From the NCBI GenBank assembly GCA_037893245.1, contig JBAIAA010000605.1, positions 1-64,000 of the forward strand: a stretch of DNA of 64,000 bases, given 5' to 3'. A program made the translations under genes and the position numbers. The notes beneath the pieces were generated by a model. The model was not told the DNA's origin, did not search any database, and saw only the letters and a program-made list of their open reading frames with translations. Positions 27,001 to 58,113 of this stretch are shown here, piece after piece (within the stretch, counting starts at the first letter, position 1; each line of letters starts with the position of its first letter). The DNA is from Crossaster papposus. Its lineage: Eukaryota > Echinodermata > Asteroidea > Velatida > Solasteridae.

Positions 27001-28591
27001 CCTGTCAAGATATTGTCTCAGCATCCATACCAGCCTTGCTATAACACCATCCTCCTTCAAGGTATCACATCATAAGCCACAAGACGCCAACACCAATTTG
27101 AAGCAAACCGCCTCTCCTGGCAAGATCTCTAGCCCTCTTTTTTCCTATTCCAGTGTTTGCTCCCGTGACGAGGACCGTTTTACCATCCAGACGAGCCGTG
27201 CTATAACCCCACCCCCCTTCAAGGTATCACCTCATAAGCCACACGACAACCAACACCAACTTGAAGTAACTCACCTCTCCTGGCAAGATCTTTGGCCGTC
27301 TCCTTGCCTATCCCGGTGTTTGCTCCTGTGATGAGGACCGTCTTACCGTCCAGACGAGCCTTGCTATAACCCAATCCTCCTACATGTTATCGCCTCATAA
27401 GCCACAAGACACCAACACCAATTAAGTACCTCACCTCTCCTATGGCAAGATCTCTAGCCTTCTCCTTGCCTATTCCGGTGTTTGCTCCCGTGATGAGGAC
27501 CGTCTTACCGTCCAGACGAGCCTTGCTATAATCCCATCCTCCTGCAAGGTATCGCCTCAGAAGCCACAAGACACCCGTTTAACTACCTAATCCATTAGAG
27601 TATGCCATCCCCGCACTACATTTTTGGAATGTTTGATTGTTGAGATTAGTGACTACGCGCGAGTAAACTCCACCCTATAAAAGGACTGACCACCTATTCG
27701 CCCTCATTTAGTGTTCAGGTACACATGGATTCGTTGTGTGCGACTTTTAGTAGCGCAGCGTTGGTCCAGCATCTCGTGGGGCTCTACCCGCCTTCGTCAT
27801 TGCTGGATTGTGGCCGAAGTAAATGGTGCTAGCTGGGCGGACTACCGGACTGTCGTGGCCCTATTGGCTGAAGTCGCTGGGGTTTAACGCTGACCTACCT
27901 GCCTTTGCTGATCCGGTGAACGTGCAGAGATGCTTGGCTCAACCGCTGCGCTATACCATTATGGGCACTGGCTGGGCGGGGCCTGTCCTGCGGGATCCTT
28001 ATTAAAGGTATTCGGCCGAGCATAATCTGTCTTATACTTTTGCTCATGCCGGCTCTTGCCGGCTTTTTAAATTCTGTCTGCTTGTGTGTTTTGTGCTTTA
28101 TTAATAATCCATTTGCTTTGCCTGTATATGATGCCATAATGCTGTGTTTATTGAATTATTTAAATTTTGTTAACTAGATTTGATTGGCGTGACATTTGTT
28201 CTTTCTTTTAATAGTCATGATTCCCGTTTTCTTCTGCCGTGCAATCGCCGTACGTAACAACACCAACACCAACTTGAAGTAACTCACCTCCCCTGGCAAG
28301 ATCTCTGGCCGTCTTTTTGCCTATCCCTATGTTTGCTTCTGTGACGAGGACTGTCTTACCGTCATGGTGAACCTTTGCTATAACACCATCCTCATACAAG
28401 GTATCGCCTCAGAAGCCACAAGACACCAACTTGAAGTAACTCACCTCTCCTGGCAAGATCTTTGGCCGTCTCCTTGCCTATCCCGGTGTTTGCTCCTGTG
28501 ATGAGGACCGTCTTACCATCTAAACGAGCCTTGCTATAACACCATCCTCCTGCAAGGTATCGCCTCATAAGCCACAAGACAACAACACCAA
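23993..28591 (-). CDS. Retinol dehydrogenase 11/12/13/14-like SDR (SDR7C-type)
   Basis: Exons 28591-28445, 25940-25749, 25438-25154, 24978-24762 and 24095-23993 join in frame with GT-AG junctions. From the first methionine in exon 1 there are 306 residues. TGANTGIG (24-31) binds NADP(H); NNAG is at 103-106; NVSS (Ser153/154), Tyr179 and Lys183 (YCQSK) are catalytic; HPGSVQTEL follows. The C-terminus ([20 protein letters not shown]...W) is the usual ending of RDH11/12/13-type enzymes, which reduce retinal or lipid aldehydes at ER or mitochondrial membranes. The first exon has an acceptor (CTTGTAG) and is phase 1 at both ends, so a short upstream exon with the true start probably exists; I could not place it. 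Five decayed copies of exon 1 lie between it and exon 2. Confidence 0.9.
25471..25526 (-). pseudogene. Fragment of SDR7C exon 3 repeated in intron 2
   Basis: About 50 bp repeats 25293-25345 of exon 3 in the same orientation (shared text GCGTGCTGGGGTGGAAGACT), just upstream of exon 3 in the direction of transcription. It encodes the [14 protein letters not shown] region only and lacks splice sites. Confidence 0.75.
25941..26990 (-). other. SDR7C intron 1, distal part
   Basis: Non-coding; contains repeated AAAAAGAGT-type words at 26000-26270 and a short poly-C run at 26887-26909. No exon recognised. Confidence 0.55.
26994..27085 (-). pseudogene. SDR7C exon 1, decayed copy 1 of 6 (core deleted)
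   Basis: Only the two ends of the exon unit remain (ACCTCTCCTG... and TGCTATAACACCATCCTCC); the stretch coding for the TGANTGIG motif is gone. Confidence 0.75.
27110..27245 (-). pseudogene. SDR7C exon 1, decayed copy 2 of 6
   Basis: Encodes [20 protein letters not shown], so the cofactor motif survives, but a TGA replaces the Arg codon in the MRR- segment and the donor GAGAG|GT has become GAGAG|GC. Confidence 0.8.
27270..27415 (-). pseudogene. SDR7C exon 1, decayed copy 3 of 6
   Basis: The 3' half is identical or nearly so to the intact copy ([20 protein letters not shown]) with a good donor GAGAG|GTGAGT, but the Tyr codon after MRR has become TAA and the acceptor AG is lost (CTTAATTGG). 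Its closeness to copy 6 suggests gene conversion or a recent block duplication. Confidence 0.82.
27430..27575 (-). pseudogene. SDR7C exon 1, decayed copy 4 of 6
   Basis: The frame is open through [20 protein letters not shown] and [16 protein letters not shown], but a 2-bp insertion before the donor (GCCATAGGAGAG) shifts the exit phase from 1 to 0, so splicing to exon 2 would be out of frame. Confidence 0.82.
27576..28258. mobile_element. 683-bp insertion of unknown class between exon copies 4 and 5
   Basis: The exon repeat unit is interrupted after 'gccacaagacacc' and resumes with 'acaccaacacc' at 28259, giving a possible ACACC duplication that is ambiguous because the unit itself repeats ACACCA. 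Inside are a TATA-like word (CTATAAAAGG, 27676) and no protein. A solo LTR is possible (TGTTGAG...TAACA) but not shown. Confidence 0.4.
28266..28416 (-). pseudogene. SDR7C exon 1, decayed copy 5 of 6
   Basis: The cofactor motif reads TEANIGIG instead of TGANTGIG, removing the first essential glycine. The N-terminal part is frameshifted ([18 protein letters not shown]). The donor GTGAGT is kept. Confidence 0.82.
28445..28591 (-). CDS. SDR7C exon 1, the only intact copy (copy 6)
   Basis: 147 nt, phase 1 on both sides (49 codons), so the unit can be duplicated or skipped without breaking frame. It encodes [17 protein letters not shown], a membrane-type N-terminus, then [20 protein letters not shown]. 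The acceptor is TTTCTACTTGTAG, the donor GAGAG|GTGAGT. Confidence 0.85.
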
Positions 28592-36099: not shown

Positions 36100-38287
36100 T
36101 AATACGCCTGTACGTCTCATTTCGATGTAGAAATGACAGATCTAAGAGTATTCTTTTTTAGGCTACATAAAAAAAATGAATTGTTTCTCATCAGAACCTT
36201 TTTGAAAAAAATGGTCCGTCAGGGCATTTTATATTTTATATTTTATAGAATAAAAATGTCGGAGATTGTGCACAAATACTCAAACGACGTTAACAAATAC
36301 CTCCCCTAAAAAGGGCAATAATAATCGATAAATTGTGAAAAATCGTGCTTCGACCCCACTCATTTTTTTCCATGGATACGTTAAAAAAGGATGTAGCAGT
36401 GATATACTGAATTTTAAAAAAAATCTGCCTGTGACCCCCTTGCGTTTTATCGTGTTGTTTTCGAACGAAAATGGCAGAAAATGACATCGCCCCAAACAAA
36501 ATCCGTGTAGATCGTGCCTGCGTACCTGGCTTTGCGGACGTTGTATGAATCACTGAATTCGGGGAGCGATACACGGAGCAAATCTGTACGTGTTTCAATG
36601 GTGCGCTTCGCGGTAGCGATCTATACGTATTTACTGTGTGAGATGTGTGGCTCATGAGCGTGGAAGAACGAATGAGATACATTTCAACGTTGGTGGCGCA
36701 CTTTCTTGGGCCCCCCCTCCGTCCCCCCCCCCCCCCCCCTGGACTGTGCATACATGTACAGTACATGTACATGTTGATGAACCGGGCGTTGGTGGTAAGC
36801 GCTGATGTGCATTTAGCTCTGATTGGATAATTGTTGTTGCGACCTGCGAGCGTAGGTTACTACTTCTGTGGCTCAGCTGCGCGGCAGAGCATGTACGCTA
36901 CCCAGAATGCCGTGCGTTTTTTTACACATAAATTTATGAAGCTCGTCAGGTGTTTTCCAGCGCCCAGTTATAGTATGGGCGCCACCGCGTGCGGGGGTGA
37001 AAGCGCTAGTTGACAAAAACTTCGTTGGGACATTGCATTCTTTATCTAAATTACAAATTGTTTTCGTTGATTTACTTTCCAAAACTGACCAATGCACACA
37101 TTTCATATAGAATAAAAACTCAAATAATGTTGGTAGAAACACAAAAATATAGTTAAGTCGATTTATTTTCCCATATAATTTTGAGCACCCCAGGTTTTTT
37201 TAATGAAAGAGGCACACAGACACCGTTCTCACTACTATTATACTCGGCTTCTCCGATCTCCTGTCCGCCGTCGATTTATATTTGTTCGGCTTGCTTCTGC
37301 TGGAACATGTATGGCCACTAAAACATTCACTTGGCCTGCGTGAGTTTTAACTGTTATTGCTTTCAACAGGGTGTTTTTACAGCATATACAAAATAAAAAA
37401 AATAAAAATCTCGGAATTTTCGGGCGTCCGGTACATTTATATTTTGTTTATAAAATATAAAAAAATATCCACCCGGCACGAAAAAATTGGCCCGACCGCT
37501 GATGAGAAACAATCAATTTTTTGTATGTAGCCTTATAGAGTTTACAAAAAGCACCACCACTGCCACTGCCGACTCCCGCCATGTTTTCCACGTCACTGGT
37601 TCTTTCTGAGATTTCTTATGGAAAGAGGCTATTGTCAACCAGCGGCAACCGTGCCCCTGGGTCTGGTTCCAAATAGTCGACGTTCGAGTGACGTTAGTCA
37701 AACTATGGTTAACTATAGTTCGCGCCCGAACTTGCTCATTTGGTCGAAAAAGGGGTGACGGTTTGGAAAACGGCCTTGTGACGTCACCCCATTTTTGACA
37801 CTAGAGGGCGCTAAGGCAGCTCATCTTACACAGTTAGAACTGGAAGTAGGCCAGGGAGGTACCGGTAGTATTTGAGAGGGTATAACACCCTTGAGGGTTA
37901 AGGTTAAAAATGTGATAAAAAAGAATCACATCAACTTTCTGACCTTTGCCGTGCTTGGACTTCAAAATTAAAAGGTTTGGTAACCAAGCTGTGAATCATT
38001 TACTAATAAATTGTGCGACATCACAGAAATTTGCTTAGACATGTGTGATGTTCCTTCTGGGCCACCATAGTATCCGGATTGGGAAAGCATCCATTTGCGA
38101 ATATGTTCGGTTTGTGAAAACTTTACAAAAAGTATCGGAATTAGGAAAGCATCTGAATTAGAAAAGCAAACGTCGTATAAAATCACGACGTTTAGAAAAA
38201 CATGCGTACATCTTTTTGCCACTAATTCTGCTTCACACTCATTTGACTAACGTTTTCTTTAAGATAACGAACCCAATCTCAAGAAAG
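36100..38287. other. Upstream region of the ATP5MJ-like gene, no gene recognised
   Basis: Contains a poly-C run (36722-36739), a short A/T repeat near 36225 and, at 38050-38075, a relic of the ATGGTGGCCC element end. A 5' UTR exon of the ATP5MJ-like gene is expected here but cannot be placed; TTTCTTTAAG at 38258-38267 could be its acceptor. Confidence 0.45.
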
Positions 38288-41200
38288 ATGCCGACTGTGT
38301 GGCCCAAGCAACCGATGACTCTCTTGAAGCCTTACATCCGAGAGATTGGACCGTTTCTCATTCCCTGTATACTGTTCACAGGCTACCTAATGGGCAAAGC
38401 TACTATGATTGGATGTAAGTCATTACCAATACTGATCACAGGCTACCTCATGGGCAAAGCTACTATGATTGGATATAAGTCATTACCAATACTGATCACA
38501 GGCTACCTCATGGGCAAAGCTACTATGATTGGATGTAAGTCATTACCAATACTGATCACAGGCTACCTCATGGGCAAAGCTACTATGATTGGATGTAAGT
38601 CATTACCAATACTGATCACAGGCTACCTCATGGGCAAAGCTACTATGATTGGATGTAAGTCATTACCAATACTGATCACAGGCTACCTCATGGGCAAAGC
38701 TACTATGATTGGATGTAAGTAATTACCAATACTGATCACAGGCTACCTCATGGGCAAAGCTACTATGATTGGATGTAAGTCATTACCAATACTGATCACA
38801 GGCTAACTCATGGGCAAAGCTACTATGATTGCATGTAAGTAATTACCAATACTGATCACAGGCTACCTCATGGGCAAAGCTACTATGATTGGATGTAAGT
38901 AATTACCAATACTGATCACAGGCTACCTCATGGGCAAAGCTACTATGATTGGATATAAGTCATTACCAATACTGATCACAGGCTACCTCATGGGCAAAGC
39001 TACTATGATTGGATATAAGTCATTACCAATACTGATCACAGGCTACCTTATGGGCAAAGCTACTATGAACAGATGTAAGTCATTACCAATACTGATCACA
39101 GGCTACCTCATGGGCAAAGCTACTATGATTGAATGTAAGTCATTACCAATACTGATCACAGGCTACCTCATGGGCAAAGCTACTATGATTGGATATAAGT
39201 CATTACCAATACTGATCACAGGCTACCTCATGGGCAAAGCTACTATGATTGGATATAAGTCATTACCAATACTGATCACAGGCTACCTCATGGGCAAAGC
39301 TACTATGATTGGATGTAAGTAATTACCAATACTGATCACAGGCTACCTCATGGGCAAAGCTACTATGATTGGATATAAGTCATTACCAATACTGATCACA
39401 GGCTACCTCATGGGCAAAGCTACTATGAACAGATGTAAGTCATTACCAATACTGATCACAGGCTACCTCATGGGCAAAGCTACTATGATTGGATGTAAGT
39501 CATTACCAATACTGATCACAGGCTACCTCATGGGCAAAGCTACTATGATTGGATATAAGTCATTACCAATACTGATCACAGGCTACCTCATGGGCAAAGC
39601 TACTATGATTGGATGTAAGTAATTACCAATACTAATCACAGGCTACCTCATGGGCAAAGCTACTATGATTGGATATAAGTCATTACCAATACTGATCACA
39701 GGCTACCTCATGGGCAAAGCTACTATGATTGGATGTAAGTAATTACCAATACTGATCACAGGCTACCTCATGGGCAAAGCTACTATGATTGGATGTAAGT
39801 AATTACCAATACTGATCACAGGCTACCTCATGGGCAAAGCTACTATGAATGGATGTAAGTCATTACCAATACTGATCACAGGCTACCTCATGGGCAAAGC
39901 TACTATGAATGGATGTAAGTCATTACCAATACTGATCACAGGCTACCTCATGGGCAAAGCTACTATGAATGGATGTAAGTCATTACCAATACTGATCACA
40001 GGCTACCTCATGGGCAAAGCTACTATGATTGGATGTAAGTCATTACCAATACTGATCACAGGCTACCTCATGGGCAAAGCTACTATGATTGGATGTAAGT
40101 AATTACCAATACTGATCACAGGCTACCTCATGGGCAAAGCTACTATGAATGGATGTAAGTCATTACCAATACTGATCACAGGCTACCTCATGGGCAAAGC
40201 TACTATGAATGGATGTAAGTCATTACCAATACTGATCACAGGCTACCTCATGGGCAAAGCTACTATGATTGGATGTAAGTCATTACCAATACTGATCACA
40301 GGCTACCTCATGGGCAAAGCTACTATGAATGGATGTAAGTCATTACCAATACTGATCACAGGCTACCTCATGGGCAAAGCTACTGTGATTTGACGTAAGT
40401 CATTACATTTAACAAATACATGTAGCAGCTTCTGTTACAACTGATACCAACGATAATGACACAAATTGACCAATCACTAACCGATAATATAAAAAGAAAT
40501 GACCGATAGTGTAGTAACTTTTACTACACTCTCGGTAAATTTATATTACATGATCAGTCAGCACCGATAATGTAATAACGATTGACTATTAGTGTAGTAC
40601 ATTTTACTACACGATTGGTCATTTGTTGTTAAATTATCGATCAGTAATACAGTATCGGTCAATTTGTGTGATATTATCAGTTGGTGATACTGTCCATTGG
40701 GAATACAACATTTGTAAACATCAAAAAACAAAAATACCAAATTATTATGAAATACCCTAATTTTATACTGGACTGTTAGTGAATGACAGTCCAAAACATC
40801 CTGTGAAAGTTTGGCACCTGATTTTGTACGTAAACTGCAACAAAATAATGGAAATGGACAAATAACATGAAATCTCCTCTTTTTTTCTGTTTCCCTAGTG
40901 AGAGAAAACAAGAAGCAGGCGGCACTACAATGTAAGTCATTTTTTTAACACTACACTCAGTTAGACAAAAGCAGACTAAAGCTGTGTTTCCATTGGACTT
41001 TATTTTGTTAACGTACCACAATTTTTCTGAAGAATGACATTAAATCCAATGGGAATGTGCGGTTGACTAACATCCCTGTCAACTTACCGCGACGTTTATG
41101 TAAAACTACAAGGCTGAAAGTGGTCGCGGATAGTTTACACTTAGCCGCGGAAAGTTTCCGCTCGGCTGCGGAAAGTTATCAGTGCCAGTAATATGAGACA

Positions 41201-44014
41201 TTATAAAGCCAGCTTTGCAAGGGTAATAACCATGCCATCGTGGTAAAACAAAGTCTCAGTGGGAACGCATGGTAGGATTACGCGAAGGCATGTTGCGGTA
41301 AGTTTCTGTGAGGCCTCGGAAGAAAACGTTCAATGGGAACACGGCTAATGAAAACAATTATACTATCAGGCATGTGAGAAAAACTCTGGCAACATGCACA
41401 AAAGACACTGAACACTACGGCTGTTCCAAATACACTGTATTTAAATATTCGATCATCAACTCAAATTTCAAATAGTTTTTGATTGTTTTTTAAATAAAAA
41501 AAACATGCACGTGCACACAAAAATGACAAGTGTTATTTTGTATTGTCGAATGGCACTTTTTGGTCAACAGTAACTTCTTTTGTCGCTTTATTGGTTCCAT
41601 TTTGTTTGTTTTTACGTAGTTGTTCTCGTGCCCCACCTGGGATTAGTTTGTAATACTTGCATGCTCCCCTCTACATCTAGTACACTCATTTCTCAGTTTT
41701 ACCTGTTGTCATCATGTTCTCTAGTTAACTTTCTGTCTGTTTATATTGTTCATTCAATTTTGTCTAGGTTTCTTTTTTTCTAAGTAAAATTTTTCTTTTT
41801 TGGCTTTTTCGCAAGTGCGAAAAAGCCTTTGTTTTTGTTCTGATTTTTTTTTGTCTTCTTCTTCTTTTTTCTTTTCTTTTAGTAACCTAAACCCCATAGA
41901 CTTTGTACACGTTTTTTCTGCCCGTCACTTTTAATAGAAAATAAAGTCGTATTTACATAAAACTTAACCCAGGTGAAGGCCATATAGTGAACTCGTGTCT
42001 CGCAGACATACGTAATGATGACGTCATCAGAGGTCATGTGACGTCATCTTAAAGGTGCAATTGATTTAATCTTTGAAAATCAATACAAAATCAACCGCAA
42101 GAGACCAACACTTGATGTTTGTGGCAATAGATATAATAATTCATGATCTTTATTTTATCTCGTGTGCGTGAAATCACGTGACCCTTCCTTCCGGTCTAAA
42201 CCGGAAGTGCCTTATAATTTGAAAGTGAAAAATGATATGAACTTACTTTCAACGATGTTAGTGTCTGGCTAGAATAAACTTTTCAAAACAAAATTCCGCG
42301 ACGTCATAACATGTTATAGCGCCCTCTAGCGGCAGGTTGAAAAATGATTAAAATGAATAATCTGTTGATGTGTGTGGCGAAGTTTGCTGAAACCACTTTA
42401 TAACCGGTGTATATAATCAGCTTCATGCTTAGCCCATATTGGGAATGAGAAATATTTATGACGTCACCAAACCGGAAGTTACAATGAAAAATCTTTCAAA
42501 CCTTAAAAAATAGCTGAAAAATCAACCGCTATAGATATAATTCAATTTTTTGCTTCAAATAGCAAAGTTAAGACAGCTCTCGAGCTTTCTTTTAATTACG
42601 TCACGATGACGTCATCAAGTGTCAGATTACAAGCAACCAAATATTTCTAGATTTAATCTTTAAAAATCAATACAAAATCAACTGTAAGAGATCTGATTTA
42701 GTTTTGTAAGGGGATTGATAGATTAATCCATGGTCTTCATAATTTGTATTACATGCAAAAAGACCTGACACTTCCTTCCGGTCCTAACCGGAAGTGCATT
42801 ATAATTGTAAAGTGGAAAACGATGTGAACTTACATGTACTTTCAACGATGTTAGGCGATGGCTAGGTTGTAAGTAACGAACAAGTTAACGGTGACTTCTT
42901 AAAATGTTATAGCGCCCTCTAGCGGCATGGTTGACAAATGTTACACCATATTACGATTATATTTAAATGATTACGTTTTTCGACCTTTAAGCCATATCTC
43001 AGCAACGGAACGTGCTAACATAACAAATCTGTTTGAATTGTTAGGTGATAGATAGTTGCACAAAAAGTTCACAAACGTGTGACGTCATCGTTTTAATCAG
43101 TTTGAATTCATTTTAATCTGTTTAAATTAACTTAAATTTGTTTTCAATGATTTTAAATTGTTTTGATGGCATACAAGTTCAATTTTTGAAAAATTGTATC
43201 TAAAAAATTGCGAATGCGAAAAAGCCCTATGTTCTGTTCCTCGAACAGACGTAGTTCTAGTTTATGTTATTGGTTTCTTAATGTTTTATATTCCGATTTG
43301 TTTCTGATTTATTTGTGTTTTGTTTCTGTAATTGTATTGTCGAGGTCAAATAAATAATAATAATAATATTAATATTTTTCGGTAGCTGGGTAAAGTAGCC
43401 CATATATCCAGTGCAGCATGCATATTTTAACCAGTGCACTTTGTATACAACTTTTGACCAGCAAGGAAGGCAGCAGTAGCTGGTGTCTGTAAATCTTGAA
43501 TTGGAATATTCGGTCAATGTTGAAAATTTGGTACAAATGTGATTTTCATTTTTTGTCTTAAATGACATCTTTAATACCTACAGTTTTATTCACAGAAGTG
43601 TTGATTTTGCTAAATAAAGTGGGGGAAAATGACCAGGAGGTCTACGGAGCTCTATTATATACCAATTGAAATCTTACGTTGCGGGCTTTTAAGCATACTG
43701 TACAAGATTGGAGTTTGGCACATAGTCACAGTACATCATAATAAGGCCTTCACAGATGTCTCCTTTGAATAAGTAAAATAACAAGCAATTTTATAAATTT
43801 TCAAAATGGCTGCCATTGCTTGTTATTCCACCATATTTAGTCGAAGGACAAATCTGCGATGGCCCTATATCTAATATTATTTTCTGACTGTGTGCCGAAT
43901 GTCATGCTTTTATCATCTAAGGCTCGATTCTCCCAAATATTTCCCCAAGTATCTGTCCGCTATAATAAGTTTTTTATTTTTTCTAATTTGTTTTCAGCAT
44001 CTGGCCACCATTAA
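38288..44014 (+). CDS. ATP5MJ: Mitochondrial ATP synthase 6.8-kDa proteolipid-like subunit (ATP5MJ/MP68)
   Basis: Exons 38288-38414 (MPTVWPKQPM... to ...ATMIG), 40899-40931 (RENKKQAALQ) and 43998-44014 (SSGHH-stop) join in phase 1 to a 58-residue protein. It has a basic N-terminus, a KPY motif (residues 14-16), one hydrophobic segment (about 20-35), a charged Lys-rich tail and the ending GHH. Vertebrate ATP5MJ is also 58 residues, with KPY at the same distance from the C-terminus, one membrane span and the same GHH ending; that is the basis of the call, made by eye. The protein sits in the inner membrane at the dimer region of the F1Fo complex. Donors are all GAT|GTAAGT or AAT|GTAAGT; acceptors are TTCCCTAG and TTTTCAG. 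An AATAAA lies at 44129. Intron 1 begins with a 60-bp tandem array, intron 2 holds a Helitron-like element. Confidence 0.75.
38371..40410 (+). repeat. 60-bp minisatellite made of exon 1 end + donor + acceptor, 34 units
   Basis: Each unit is GCTACCTCATGGGCAAAGCT ACTATGATTGGAT (33 nt, same as the 3' end of coding exon 1), then GTAAGTCATT and ACCAATACTGATCACAG (27 nt, donor plus acceptor-like). The first unit is the real exon end; 33 more follow at an exact 60-bp period, the last one degenerate. Twenty-six units keep GTAAGT; eight have ATAAGT (38461, 38941, 39001, 39181, 39241, 39361, 39541, 39661 rows). Eight units have GTAAGTAA, which is an in-frame TAA on readthrough. Read through, the unit encodes the hydrophobic 20-mer SLPILITGYLMGKATMIGCK. 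The variants recur in blocks, a sign of unequal exchange. Confidence 0.95.
40438..40690. mobile_element. Inverted-repeat element in ATP5MJ intron 1, CGATAAT-motif interior
   Basis: AACTGATACCAACGATAATG at the left is inverted imperfectly at the right (ATATTATCAGTTGGTGATAC). Inside, ACCGATAAT/GATTGGTCA and TAGTGTAGTA words repeat in both orientations. Confidence 0.6.
40979..41346. mobile_element. MITE, TCCCATTGGA family
   Basis: The left end AGCTGTGTTTCCATTGGACT and right end TTCAATGGGAACACGGCT are inverted. GCCGCGG/CGGAAAGTT words repeat inside. A truncated inverted relative is at 13085-13296. Confidence 0.7.
41794..43260 (+). mobile_element. Helitron-like non-autonomous element with internal duplication
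   Basis: The 3' end has TCTGTTCCTCGAACAGA, a 7-bp-stem hairpin, followed 8 bp later by CTAG at 43257-43260 and a T, the standard Helitron terminus. The 5' end is less clear; a TC at 41794 precedes a hairpin GGCTTTTTCGCAAGTGCGAAAAAGCC-like stretch whose words recur near 43210. Inside, 42010-42330 and 42595-42925 are diverged direct copies (shared AACCGGAAGTGC and GTTATAGCGCCCTCTAGCGG). No Rep/Hel protein is encoded. Confidence 0.6.
43261..43997 (+). other. Rest of ATP5MJ intron 2
   Basis: Begins with text that looks like a LINE 3' tail (GTCGAGGTCAAATAAATAAT and an AAT run at 43350-43370), possibly the target the Helitron-like element landed in. No exon besides the acceptor at 43997. Confidence 0.5.
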
Positions 44015-55265: not shown

Positions 55266-55376
55266 GAGTTGATTCTCACCTCCCGAGGACTCGTATAATC
55301 TCGATTATACTGCAGGTAATTACCTTTGCATAATCATTGATTATACTTCGCCTCCTTCGGTTTCGAATCAACTTGC
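55266..55376. repeat. DIRS internal complementary region
   Basis: The first part (GTTGATTCTCACCTCCCGAG ... TTTGCATAATC) is the complement of the element's left tip (54673-54745). The second part (GATTATACTTCGCCTCCTTC ... AATCAACTTGCG) is the complement of its right tip (60104-60145). The two tips meet at about 55331. Confidence 0.9.
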
Positions 55377-56500
55377 GATTTTGAAGCTGCTTGGAGAATA
55401 ACTTTTGCCATTACAGAATTTGCTGATGGCTTGTTATAAAACCTGCTAAACATCGACTCAGATGCCCAGTCAGCCGACTCCAGAATATCCTTCATGGACA
55501 CTCCCAATCGGAATGAAGCAGATGTGGCTGCCCCACGAGTGGAGTGGGCTTTAAACTTTTGCGTGTCAACGCCAGCACTCTGTAAAAGTGCGACGATCCA
55601 TCGACTCACAATAGAAGACACAACTTTCCCATGTGGCTTCAGATAACTTATAAGAAGCTGCGTCTCAGTACCCCGCACAGCTGCTGTGCGATCCCGATAA
55701 CACGAGACAGCTTGAACCGGACAAATGGATTTGTCTTCAAAGGCCTTAATCTCAACCACTCTCATTGTATGGCCTGGTCGACTTTGTTTCAGTAACTGAC
55801 AGGGAACAAATTTCAGTGAATGAGGTGTCACCACCAAGTGGTTTATATTTAAATGAACCAGCGAAGACACCCTTCCTGTTGTGACCAAGGCTAACAGAAG
55901 GACCATTTTCAGTTTCAACATTCTCAAGGAAAGGGAAGACCACGACCCTAGTTGTGAGAGAAAAACAAGAACTGACTCCACATCCCAAGTCACCATATAC
56001 TTTGGCTTGGGTTGATTACGGTTAAAAAAAACCTTTCATGAGCTGGACTACTGCCTCACAGCGTCCCACTGGAATACCACCAACTGGGTCATGGTATCTT
56101 GAGATTGCTGACCTGTAAACACCGAGAGTTCTGTAACTCAACCCTTTCTTCTCGCATGTGACCAAGAATTCAAATATATCCGTCAAAGGTGCTGAAAGTG
56201 TATTAAGTGATCGTTCACGACACATATCCCAAACTTTCCAGGATGATTGGTATTGTTTGTGAGTTGAAACTCCGAGTCTACAGCTTGCAAGCATAACTTG
56301 GGCAACATTGCTTGAAAAACCCTCTGCTTGGTAACGATTCCGGAGACACACCATGCCGCTAGATGCAGGGATTGCGCCAAGGGGTGCCCCTGACCCGAGT
56401 CGGGCTGTGTCAGTACCTGATCCCCTTGTGGAAGTAAAATTGGTGAAGCTATTGCCAGTCGCAATAGCACAGGGTACCAGACCTGGGTCGTCCAAGTTGG
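55334..56500 (-). pseudogene. DIRS tyrosine recombinase (YR)
   Basis: The C-terminal catalytic part shows a first Arg in TTGRVSSL, the H-x-x-R motif in KAHSTRGAATSASF, and a Tyr in ESMFSRFYNK, the expected R-H-R-Y set. The N-terminal core-binding part (STHKQYQSSWKVWDMCRER) is in another frame (56022-56888). The two parts are separated by a stop or frameshift near 56022, so the product is split. Confidence 0.88.
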
Positions 56501-56699
56501 GGCAACTACTAGCAAATCTATCTTCTCCAGTTGTACCTTCTGCAAAACCTGAACCAAGAGACAGAAGGGCGGAAACGCATACCCTAGTTCGCTCTTCCAA
56601 GTTATCGAGAATGCATCGATTGCGATTGCTATTGCTATTGCGGGTCGGGTTTCCATCAACTGCCCCGGTACATGGTACCGGGGCAGTTGATGGTTTATC

Positions 56700-58113
56700 C
56701 GGGAGGCAAATAAGTCCACTGTCGGGCGTAGGCCAAATCTTCTGCACACCTGTGCAAGGAGACTGGGATCCAACATCCATTCTAGTCTGTCCATAAACAC
56801 CCGAGAGTGATGATCCGCAAGGACATGGTCGACTCCTGGTACATGACAAGCTGTTATGGTTATGTTCCTCATCATGCACCATTTCCACATGGACACCGCT
56901 AACTTGGACAGGCTGTCGGTATGCGTGCCCCCTTTGTGCTTTATGTACGACAAGGCTGTCCTATTGTCCAACTTCAACATTATGTGACAGTCCTTTTTGC
57001 CCTTGGCAGATGTCTGTAGGGCCAGGAAGGAAGCCAGAAGTTCCAGGTAGTTGATATGTTGGGTTTGCTCTGACAGAGACCAACGACCTCCTGTCTGACC
57101 GAGCGGACAATGAGCCCCCCAGCCTTGCGGGTGTGGTAAAATTAATGGTTTGCCATTCCACTGTTTGAGGCAATGTTTCCACCACTGACACCAGGCTTTG
57201 ATAAGAGGGATCCCTGTGAATTGACTGGATCAGATCCGACTGTAATGCCCTCAGAAGGACTGGGGCAGGAACTACATCGTCTGAAGTTGCTGTCATTTTC
57301 CCAATGACACTCGCTAATTTCTCCGCAGTTAGGCGCGGGGTCAAGGCCACTTTACTGCAAAGCTTCTCCAAACTGCTGACTTTTTCGTCTGGGAGACTCA
57401 AAGTCATTTGCTGGGAATCGATAATATGACCTAGATATCTGATTCGAGTTGTCGGTGTGAGTTTGGACTTGTCCCTGTTTACTAATAACCCAAGGTTGTG
57501 GAGCATGTTGAGAATGTAGTTCATCTGCCTGTAGCATTCTGCTTCGGATTGTGCTACCAGAAGTAAATCGTCCAGATAAATGACCACCTTCATTGATCTG
57601 TGTCTCAGGTGGGACATCACCGGCTTCATTAGCTTTGTGAATACCCGTGGTGCTGGGGACAATCCGAAGGGGAGTACTTGGAACTCGAATATGGTCTTCT
57701 CCCACTGAAAACGCAGGAACTTCCTGCTGTCCTGCTAGATAGGAATCATGAAATATGAATCTTTTAAATCTATCGAAATCATGGAGTTCCCTTTCTGAAC
57801 AATATTCTTTGCATGTTGTATTGACTCCATTTTGAAATGCTCTGTCTTGATGAACCAATTGAGATTCTTGAGATTGAATACTAGTCGGAAGCCCCCTGAG
57901 GCTTTTGGAACAACAAAAAGTGTTGAGATGAATTGACCCGGTGAGTTGTGAACTTTGATGATCGCTCCTTTGTTGAGCATCTTTTGTATTTCGTCGGAAC
58001 ATGTCGGATGTTTTTGCTTGTCCATATGTATCGGGCTTGAGTTGAACTGGCTGTCTGAAGAAAGGGATTCTGTACCCAACCACAATCTGTAGTATCCATG
58101 GGTCACTTGTCAA
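56700..58113 (-). pseudogene. DIRS reverse transcriptase and RNase H
   Basis: RT motifs: FVVPKASGGFRLVFNLKNLN, ISIDLKDSYFMIPI, then an in-frame TAG at 57735-57737, then LPFGLSPAPRVFTKLMKPV and the catalytic YLDD (in KVVIYLDDLLLV). RNase H follows after a +/-1 shift near 57120-57160 (KLDNRTALSYIKHKGG, then HVPGVDHVLADHHSR). Downstream is the DIRS-typical VDLFASRINHQLPRY. Confidence 0.9.

Follow-up and report, generated by a model that had tools for sequence, protein, structure and literature searches.

Tandem repeats that straddle an exon boundary have been described in human genes, and the best parallel to the locus reported here is the 31-bp variable number tandem repeat (VNTR) of CBS, designated c.1444_1467+7(16_21), a name by which each unit holds 24 exonic and 7 intronic nucleotides. 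It occurs in 16–21 copies, with single-base substitutions between units (PMC2630376), and is placed at the exon 13/intron 13 boundary (PMC5188458; PMC1395315). Larger numbers of units go with lower enzyme activity, according to a review that terms their location "non-coding sequence" (PMC5188458). The CBS insertion 844ins68 duplicates an exon boundary, and with it a splice site, and the protein remains normal (PMC2630376). In primate-specific paralogues, tandem repeats at exon–intron boundaries are described as able to alter splicing and to form new introns (PMC2812944), and human UBC carries an array of dual-specific AGGT splice sites (PMC10809524).

We have analyzed a window of 64,000 nucleotides from the starfish Crossaster papposus that contains 34 copies of a 60-bp unit at the end of a predicted coding exon. 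Like the CBS VNTR, the unit spans the 3' end of an exon together with its donor, here in register with the predicted coding exon, and the copies differ from each other by single bases (10 distinct changes among units 2–33). The CBS unit is 31 bp long, no multiple of three, and its number varies among people, whereas here we find an in-frame unit of 60 bp in 34 copies in one assembly, with 33 exonic coding nucleotides per unit as against the 24 exonic nucleotides implied by the CBS name. The duplication of an exon boundary, and with it of a splice site, is also shared with 844ins68. The primate repeats belong to recently duplicated gene families, in contrast to the single locus found for the gene described here. 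A splice-site motif recurring at an in-frame interval is common to UBC and our array; however, the UBC units are whole coding domains in which one AGGT acts as both sites, whereas in every unit of the array AG and GT lie 33 nt apart. On this count, and with an in-frame stop in 9 of the 34 units, a dual-specific array of the UBC type was rejected. The kind of structure, a tandem repeat across an exon boundary, is already known from human CBS, which weakens the novelty claimed in the original prediction; what stands is that our literature search retrieved no report combining ATP5MPL/ATP5MJ with alternative splicing and a tandem repeat.

The array and its predicted host gene

The main features of the locus are collected in Table 1. 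Tandem Repeats Finder recovered the array with 97% matches and 0% indels, in agreement with the period and copy number first proposed, and its 60-bp head-to-tail units of high identity place it among the minisatellites (units of 10–100 bp). The unit consensus, read in register from 38381, is GGCTACCTCATGGGCAAAGCTACTATGATTGGA followed by TGTAAGTCATTACCAATACTGATCACA, which bears out a composition of 33 nt of exon end, the GTAAGT donor and 21 nt ending in CACAG. Unit 1 is the coding exon end itself. The other units had been taken to repeat these 33 nt without change, and they do not, position 38389 being A in unit 1 and C (32 units) or T (one unit) in the remaining 33. Unit 1 is preceded by TTCACAG, and the unit joints read ATCACAG. 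At the other extreme, unit 34 is the most decayed, matching the consensus at 49 of 60 positions, and adjoins the native intron.

Table 1. Features of the array locus, in window coordinates (a slash separates exon and intron)
Feature	Position	Strand	Description
First coding exon (predicted)	38264..38414	+	ATG at 38288; 127 coding nt; exit phase 1
Array, 60 bp x 34.0	38369..40406	+	GTAAGT in 26/34 units, ATAAGT in 8/34
Donor 1, GAT/GTAAGT	38415..38420	+	read from sequence; predicted to be used
Unit 2 donor position, ATAAGT (dead)	38475..38480	+	read from sequence
First in-frame stop, TAA, GTAAGTAA variant of unit 6	38720..38722	+	donors past 38715 give a 144-aa truncation
Unit 34 (last, degenerate)	40361..40420	+	in-frame TGA before donor at 40395; grades into intron sequence
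Exon 2 (predicted)	40899..40931	+	33 nt; entered and left in phase 1; acceptor CTTTTTTTCTGTTTCCCTAG; donor AAT/GTAAGT
Exon 3, coding part (predicted)	43998..44014	+	ends SSGHH-stop

The first coding exon is probably internal, with a putative 5'UTR exon further upstream, because it is preceded by the acceptor-like TGACTAACGTTTTCTTTAAG, read by eye and 67% pyrimidine. The gene had been taken to extend to 43998, where exon 3 is predicted, but the 33-nt exon 2 located between it and the array had gone unnamed. Joined through donor 1, the three predicted exons encode 58 aa, MPTVWPKQPMTLLKPYIREIGPFLIPCILFTGYLMGKATMIGLRENKKQAALQSSGHH. Over 12 bases (ATGTAAGTCATT) the donor region of exon 2 (40930–40941) is identical to the array donors, and exon 2 has the same 33-nt length as the repeated exon end; the 12-base likeness is probably due to chance.

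Residues 13–58 of the product align with human ATP5MJ without gaps. The alignment scores 18.5 bits (E 0.002, counted for a single pairwise comparison) with identity at 10 of 46 positions, and both proteins have a length of 58 aa, a KPY and a GHH end. The human query agrees with a solved chain at 58 of 58 residues. A Pfam scan of the product gave no family at E up to 1, PF08039 (Mit_proteolip) included, a model against which human ATP5MJ, our control, scores 131.8 bits; nor did the first coding exon alone match any Pfam family. When the whole assembly was searched with PF08039 at E up to 10, the gene of the array was not among the matches. Two other places (18.4 and 16.5 bits, below the cut-off of 25) outscore it by this model, which also matches 1 of 14 control genomes, that of a bacterium; the outcome weighs neither in favor of the assignment nor plainly against it. 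Among solved structures the exon had no match, and the product retrieved one irrelevant photosystem I chain (E 1.3). The assignment originally made to an ATP5MJ-like gene is thus backed by size, gapless similarity and the GHH end and not by a match to the PF08039 model. We regard the name ATP5MJ as plausible but not proved and prefer "ATP5MJ-like", since there is pairwise similarity but no Pfam match.

Splice donors, reading frame and differences between units

The strength of the GT donors is nearly constant because 23 of the 26 units with GT read GAT/GTAAGT. In the remaining eight units (2, 10, 11, 14, 15, 17, 20, and 22) the donor is replaced by ATAAGT. The first donor had been placed at 38414, one base before its GT begins. 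As had been pointed out, 60 and 33 are both multiples of three and exon 1 exits in phase 1. Joining donors 1, 3, 4, 5, and 6 computationally to exons 2 and 3 gives proteins of 58, 98, 118, 138, and 158 aa, that is, with 0, 2, 3, 4, and 5 added 20-mers, all in frame to the native stop. The expected series of zero to five 20-mers from donors 1 to 6 therefore keeps its frame but lacks the value of one, unit 2 carrying ATAAGT. The stop-bearing variant does appear first in unit 6, and by the same joining every donor from unit 7 on leads to the truncated 144-aa product. This variant is present in 8 of the 34 units, one of which (unit 8) has a second in-frame stop besides it, and together with unit 34, where TGA stands just before the donor, accounts for the nine units with a stop. 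The inclusion of one 33-nt cassette would insert CYLMGKATMIG and not, as proposed, GYLMGKATMIG. In hydropathy the native segment reaches a maximum of 1.56, and neither it nor any window of the repeat passes 1.6, so that this measure does not set the two apart.

The 10 distinct changes among units 2–33 comprise three silent, five missense, and two nonsense, compared with 43 silent, 127 missense, and 10 nonsense if every single change that the unit could undergo is counted. We see no sign that either the frame or the donors are protected in the array, 10 changes being too few for a real selection test. A functional, frame-preserving ladder, as originally put forward, is unsupported by these data, with seven of the 10 changes altering or interrupting the protein and stops in more than a quarter of the units. 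Preservation of the frame is a by-product of a period divisible by three, for which a one-in-three accident suffices.

Mean pairwise difference among units 2–33 is 2.9%, so the array is young or recently homogenized. Three variants (Ile to Asn, donor loss, and the stop) are each found in 8 of 33 units and never in the same unit; the probability that no unit is shared by the three is 0.00011 under independent placement, although placement is not independent. The pattern fits variants that each arose once and then spread by the copying of whole units, donor loss being one of those that spread.

Origin of the array and choice of donor

The reading we favor, and hold to be probably correct, is that of a young minisatellite seeded by duplication of the exon end, in which donor 1 would be used and the other units removed with the intron. 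Its youth is most likely, judged from the units of one array in one assembly. The left flank (exon ...CTGT/ATACTGTTCACAGG), the right flank (intron ...GTAAGTCATTAC/ATTTAAC) and the unit joint (GTAAGTCATTAC-CA-ATACTGATCACAGG) align as one duplication, which points to a single tandem duplication with a 2-nt filler, followed by expansion; in this respect the original proposal, that the exon end was amplified together with its donor, holds. The intron just after GTAAGTCATTAC would have been joined to the exon at ATACTG(T/A)TCACAG with some 2 nt of filler (CA) at the joint, producing a unit made of the exon end and its donor, and the anatomy suggests that the array later grew to 34 units by slippage or unequal exchange. 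Splicing of donor 1 to exon 2 at 40899 would excise the other 33 units with an intron of 2484 nt and yield the 58-aa protein. If donors 3–6 were used now and then, 40–100 residues would be added; with later donors a stop would precede the next junction and presumably expose the RNA to degradation. The decay of unit 34, with its TGA, fits a working donor at the opposite end of the array.

The prediction for donor 1 draws on minigenes assayed in human cells, in which, of two identical strong donors with 365-nt flanking introns, the upstream one was used exclusively (PMC9225289). The same source describes that between long introns the upstream of two near-equal donors is favored and larger exons are disfavored, and that over all events, with strength unmatched, about 60% use the downstream donor. 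The minigene donors were CAG/GUAAGU, stronger on the exon side than the GAT/GTAAGT of the array, and when they were weakened the larger exons were skipped (PMC9225289). In the array, donor 1 defines an exon of 151 nt and donor 34 one of 2131 nt. As near-equal donors favor the upstream one and large exons are disfavored (PMC9225289), donor 1 is the donor most likely used. Exon definition would depend on the upstream acceptor read by eye, with its 67% pyrimidine, and this exon-proximity rule may fail if the first coding exon is also the first exon of the transcript. Folding of 477 nt of RNA from the exon into the array revealed nothing unusual: the structure fell a little short of the average over 100 shuffled sequences (z 0.94), 86 of which folded equally well or better. 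A retrocopy revealing the donor used was not among the 36 matches to a 350-nt joined query, all of which were exons or units of the array gene. With near-identical donors behind one acceptor, the choice made by the spliceosome can be tested cleanly at constant strength, setting exon-proximity against intron-proximity.

A copy-number rheostat, in which the donors compete, downstream use leads to a stop and decay, and the number of repeats tunes the amount of protein, is unlikely, although it comes next to the reading we favor. It would be served by the 25 GTAAGT sites beyond donor 1 and by the truncation common to all donors from unit 7 onward, and it has a parallel in the CBS repeats, where more copies go with lower activity (PMC5188458). 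However, under the exon-proximity rule downstream donors should seldom be used (PMC9225289), and 8 of the 34 donors are dead with no sign of selection. If copy number does vary, this could be a natural rheostat like CBS in a gene of energy metabolism. Less likely again is a more specific version, with the array as a hypervariable bank of 26 near-identical U1-binding donors whose length would set the productive mRNA, and so the amount of the subunit, in each individual.

We think it improbable that the copy number in the assembly is wrong, through a mis-joined or expanded repeat, and that the true array is shorter or longer. Tandem arrays often cause trouble in assembly, and one locus was found in the assembly and hence no second haplotype for comparison; on the other hand, the variants are irregularly placed among the units and a 2.27-Mb contig suits long reads. 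The productive ladder of donors first envisaged, with donors 1, 3, 4, 5, and 6 giving proteins of 58 to 158 aa, we rate lower still. Five donors do lead in frame to the native stop, but unit 2 is missing from the ladder, and stops and missense changes between units occur without a visible discount (in a small sample). ATP5MJ-type subunits have one helix, and several 20-mers behind the membrane segment of such a protein are an unlikely gain. Least probable, the inclusion of 33-nt cassettes as micro-exons would find CACAG before the 33 nt in each unit and GTAAGT after it in 26 of 34, in phase, but the 27-nt spacers are below the usual minimum size of animal introns, as already suspected (longer jumps across several units being possible), pyrimidines make up 59% of the acceptor tract of the unit but 94% of that of exon 2 and 83% of that of exon 3 (the accepted upstream acceptor having only 67%), and the first spacer contains a single match to CTRAY, CTGAT (38432–38436), whose A lies 6 nt upstream of the final G. 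Intron gain by tandem duplication, with every duplicated segment removed as a working intron, would likewise have to act on spacers of 27 nt.

Comparable arrays and other elements of the genome

With two units as the query, the assembly DNA returned 16 matches, none of them outside the array locus, and the 58-aa protein gave 24, of which 23 were at this locus and one was weak (contig C659, E 1.08), in surroundings where no gene could be recognized by eye; these searches, and that with the 350-nt joined query, score the best candidates only and skip very common words, so that absence is no proof. Three GTAAGT spaced by 36–66 nt have 1448 + 1874 placements in the assembly versus 3997 + 3856 for the reversed pattern (3322 versus 7853 in total, both strands, overlapping placements counted), and ladders of this type therefore show no enrichment of GTAAGT. 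Sampling the same contig at 20 evenly spaced stretches of 10 kb each (200 kb), we counted 18 arrays with a period of 20 or more and three or more copies, four of which reached at least 10 copies. From about 20 large arrays per Mb (one contig), an assumed 150,000 exon ends and 1.02 Gb, some 100–200 arrays crossing an exon end would be expected by chance before selection, a rough and assumption-laden figure. By this rough reckoning, an array of this kind is expected now and then in such a genome, and as genome anatomy alone the locus is an attractive yet ordinary accident. Counting against the "ordinary" reading, GTRAGT appears in the consensus of none of the 18 sampled arrays versus 2 of the 11 in the window.

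The second GTRAGT array of the window (27024–27575, minus strand, 162 bp x 3.4) contains, by eye, an SDR-like exon in at least three units, and the one unit scanned resembles adh_short (E 5.3e-05; 23.2 bits, below the cut-off of 26.6). GGAGAG is followed by GTGAGG or GTGAGT in two of three units and by GCGGTT in the remaining one. Additional copies are present at C605:28267-28391 and 28424-28547 and twice on contig C490. Elsewhere in the assembly (G000:C6:260784-262110, minus strand), a GTAAGT array with a spacing of about 57 nt has TTCTTAG-like words inside its units, and thus donor-like and acceptor-like words together.

The window gave no Rfam match at gathering thresholds and no tRNA. On the minus strand outside it, ARAGORN detected 170-bp arrays of tRNA-Phe (GAA), with eight genes at L040:8566-9835 (C605, about 1.41 Mb) and at least 56 at L041:389-10000 (about 1.50 Mb). 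Just after the 60-bp array, the segment 40459–40700 contains inverted, partly palindromic copies of a ACCGATAGTGTAGTAA-like motif, resembling the ends of small mobile elements. Among 19 window ORFs scanned against Pfam, three scored above the curated cut-off, all with RVT_1. At 55334–57734 (minus strand) an RVT_1 match (1.1e-17) is found near a Phage_integrase-like ORF (3.2e-05, below the cut-off), a pairing as in tyrosine-recombinase retrotransposons.
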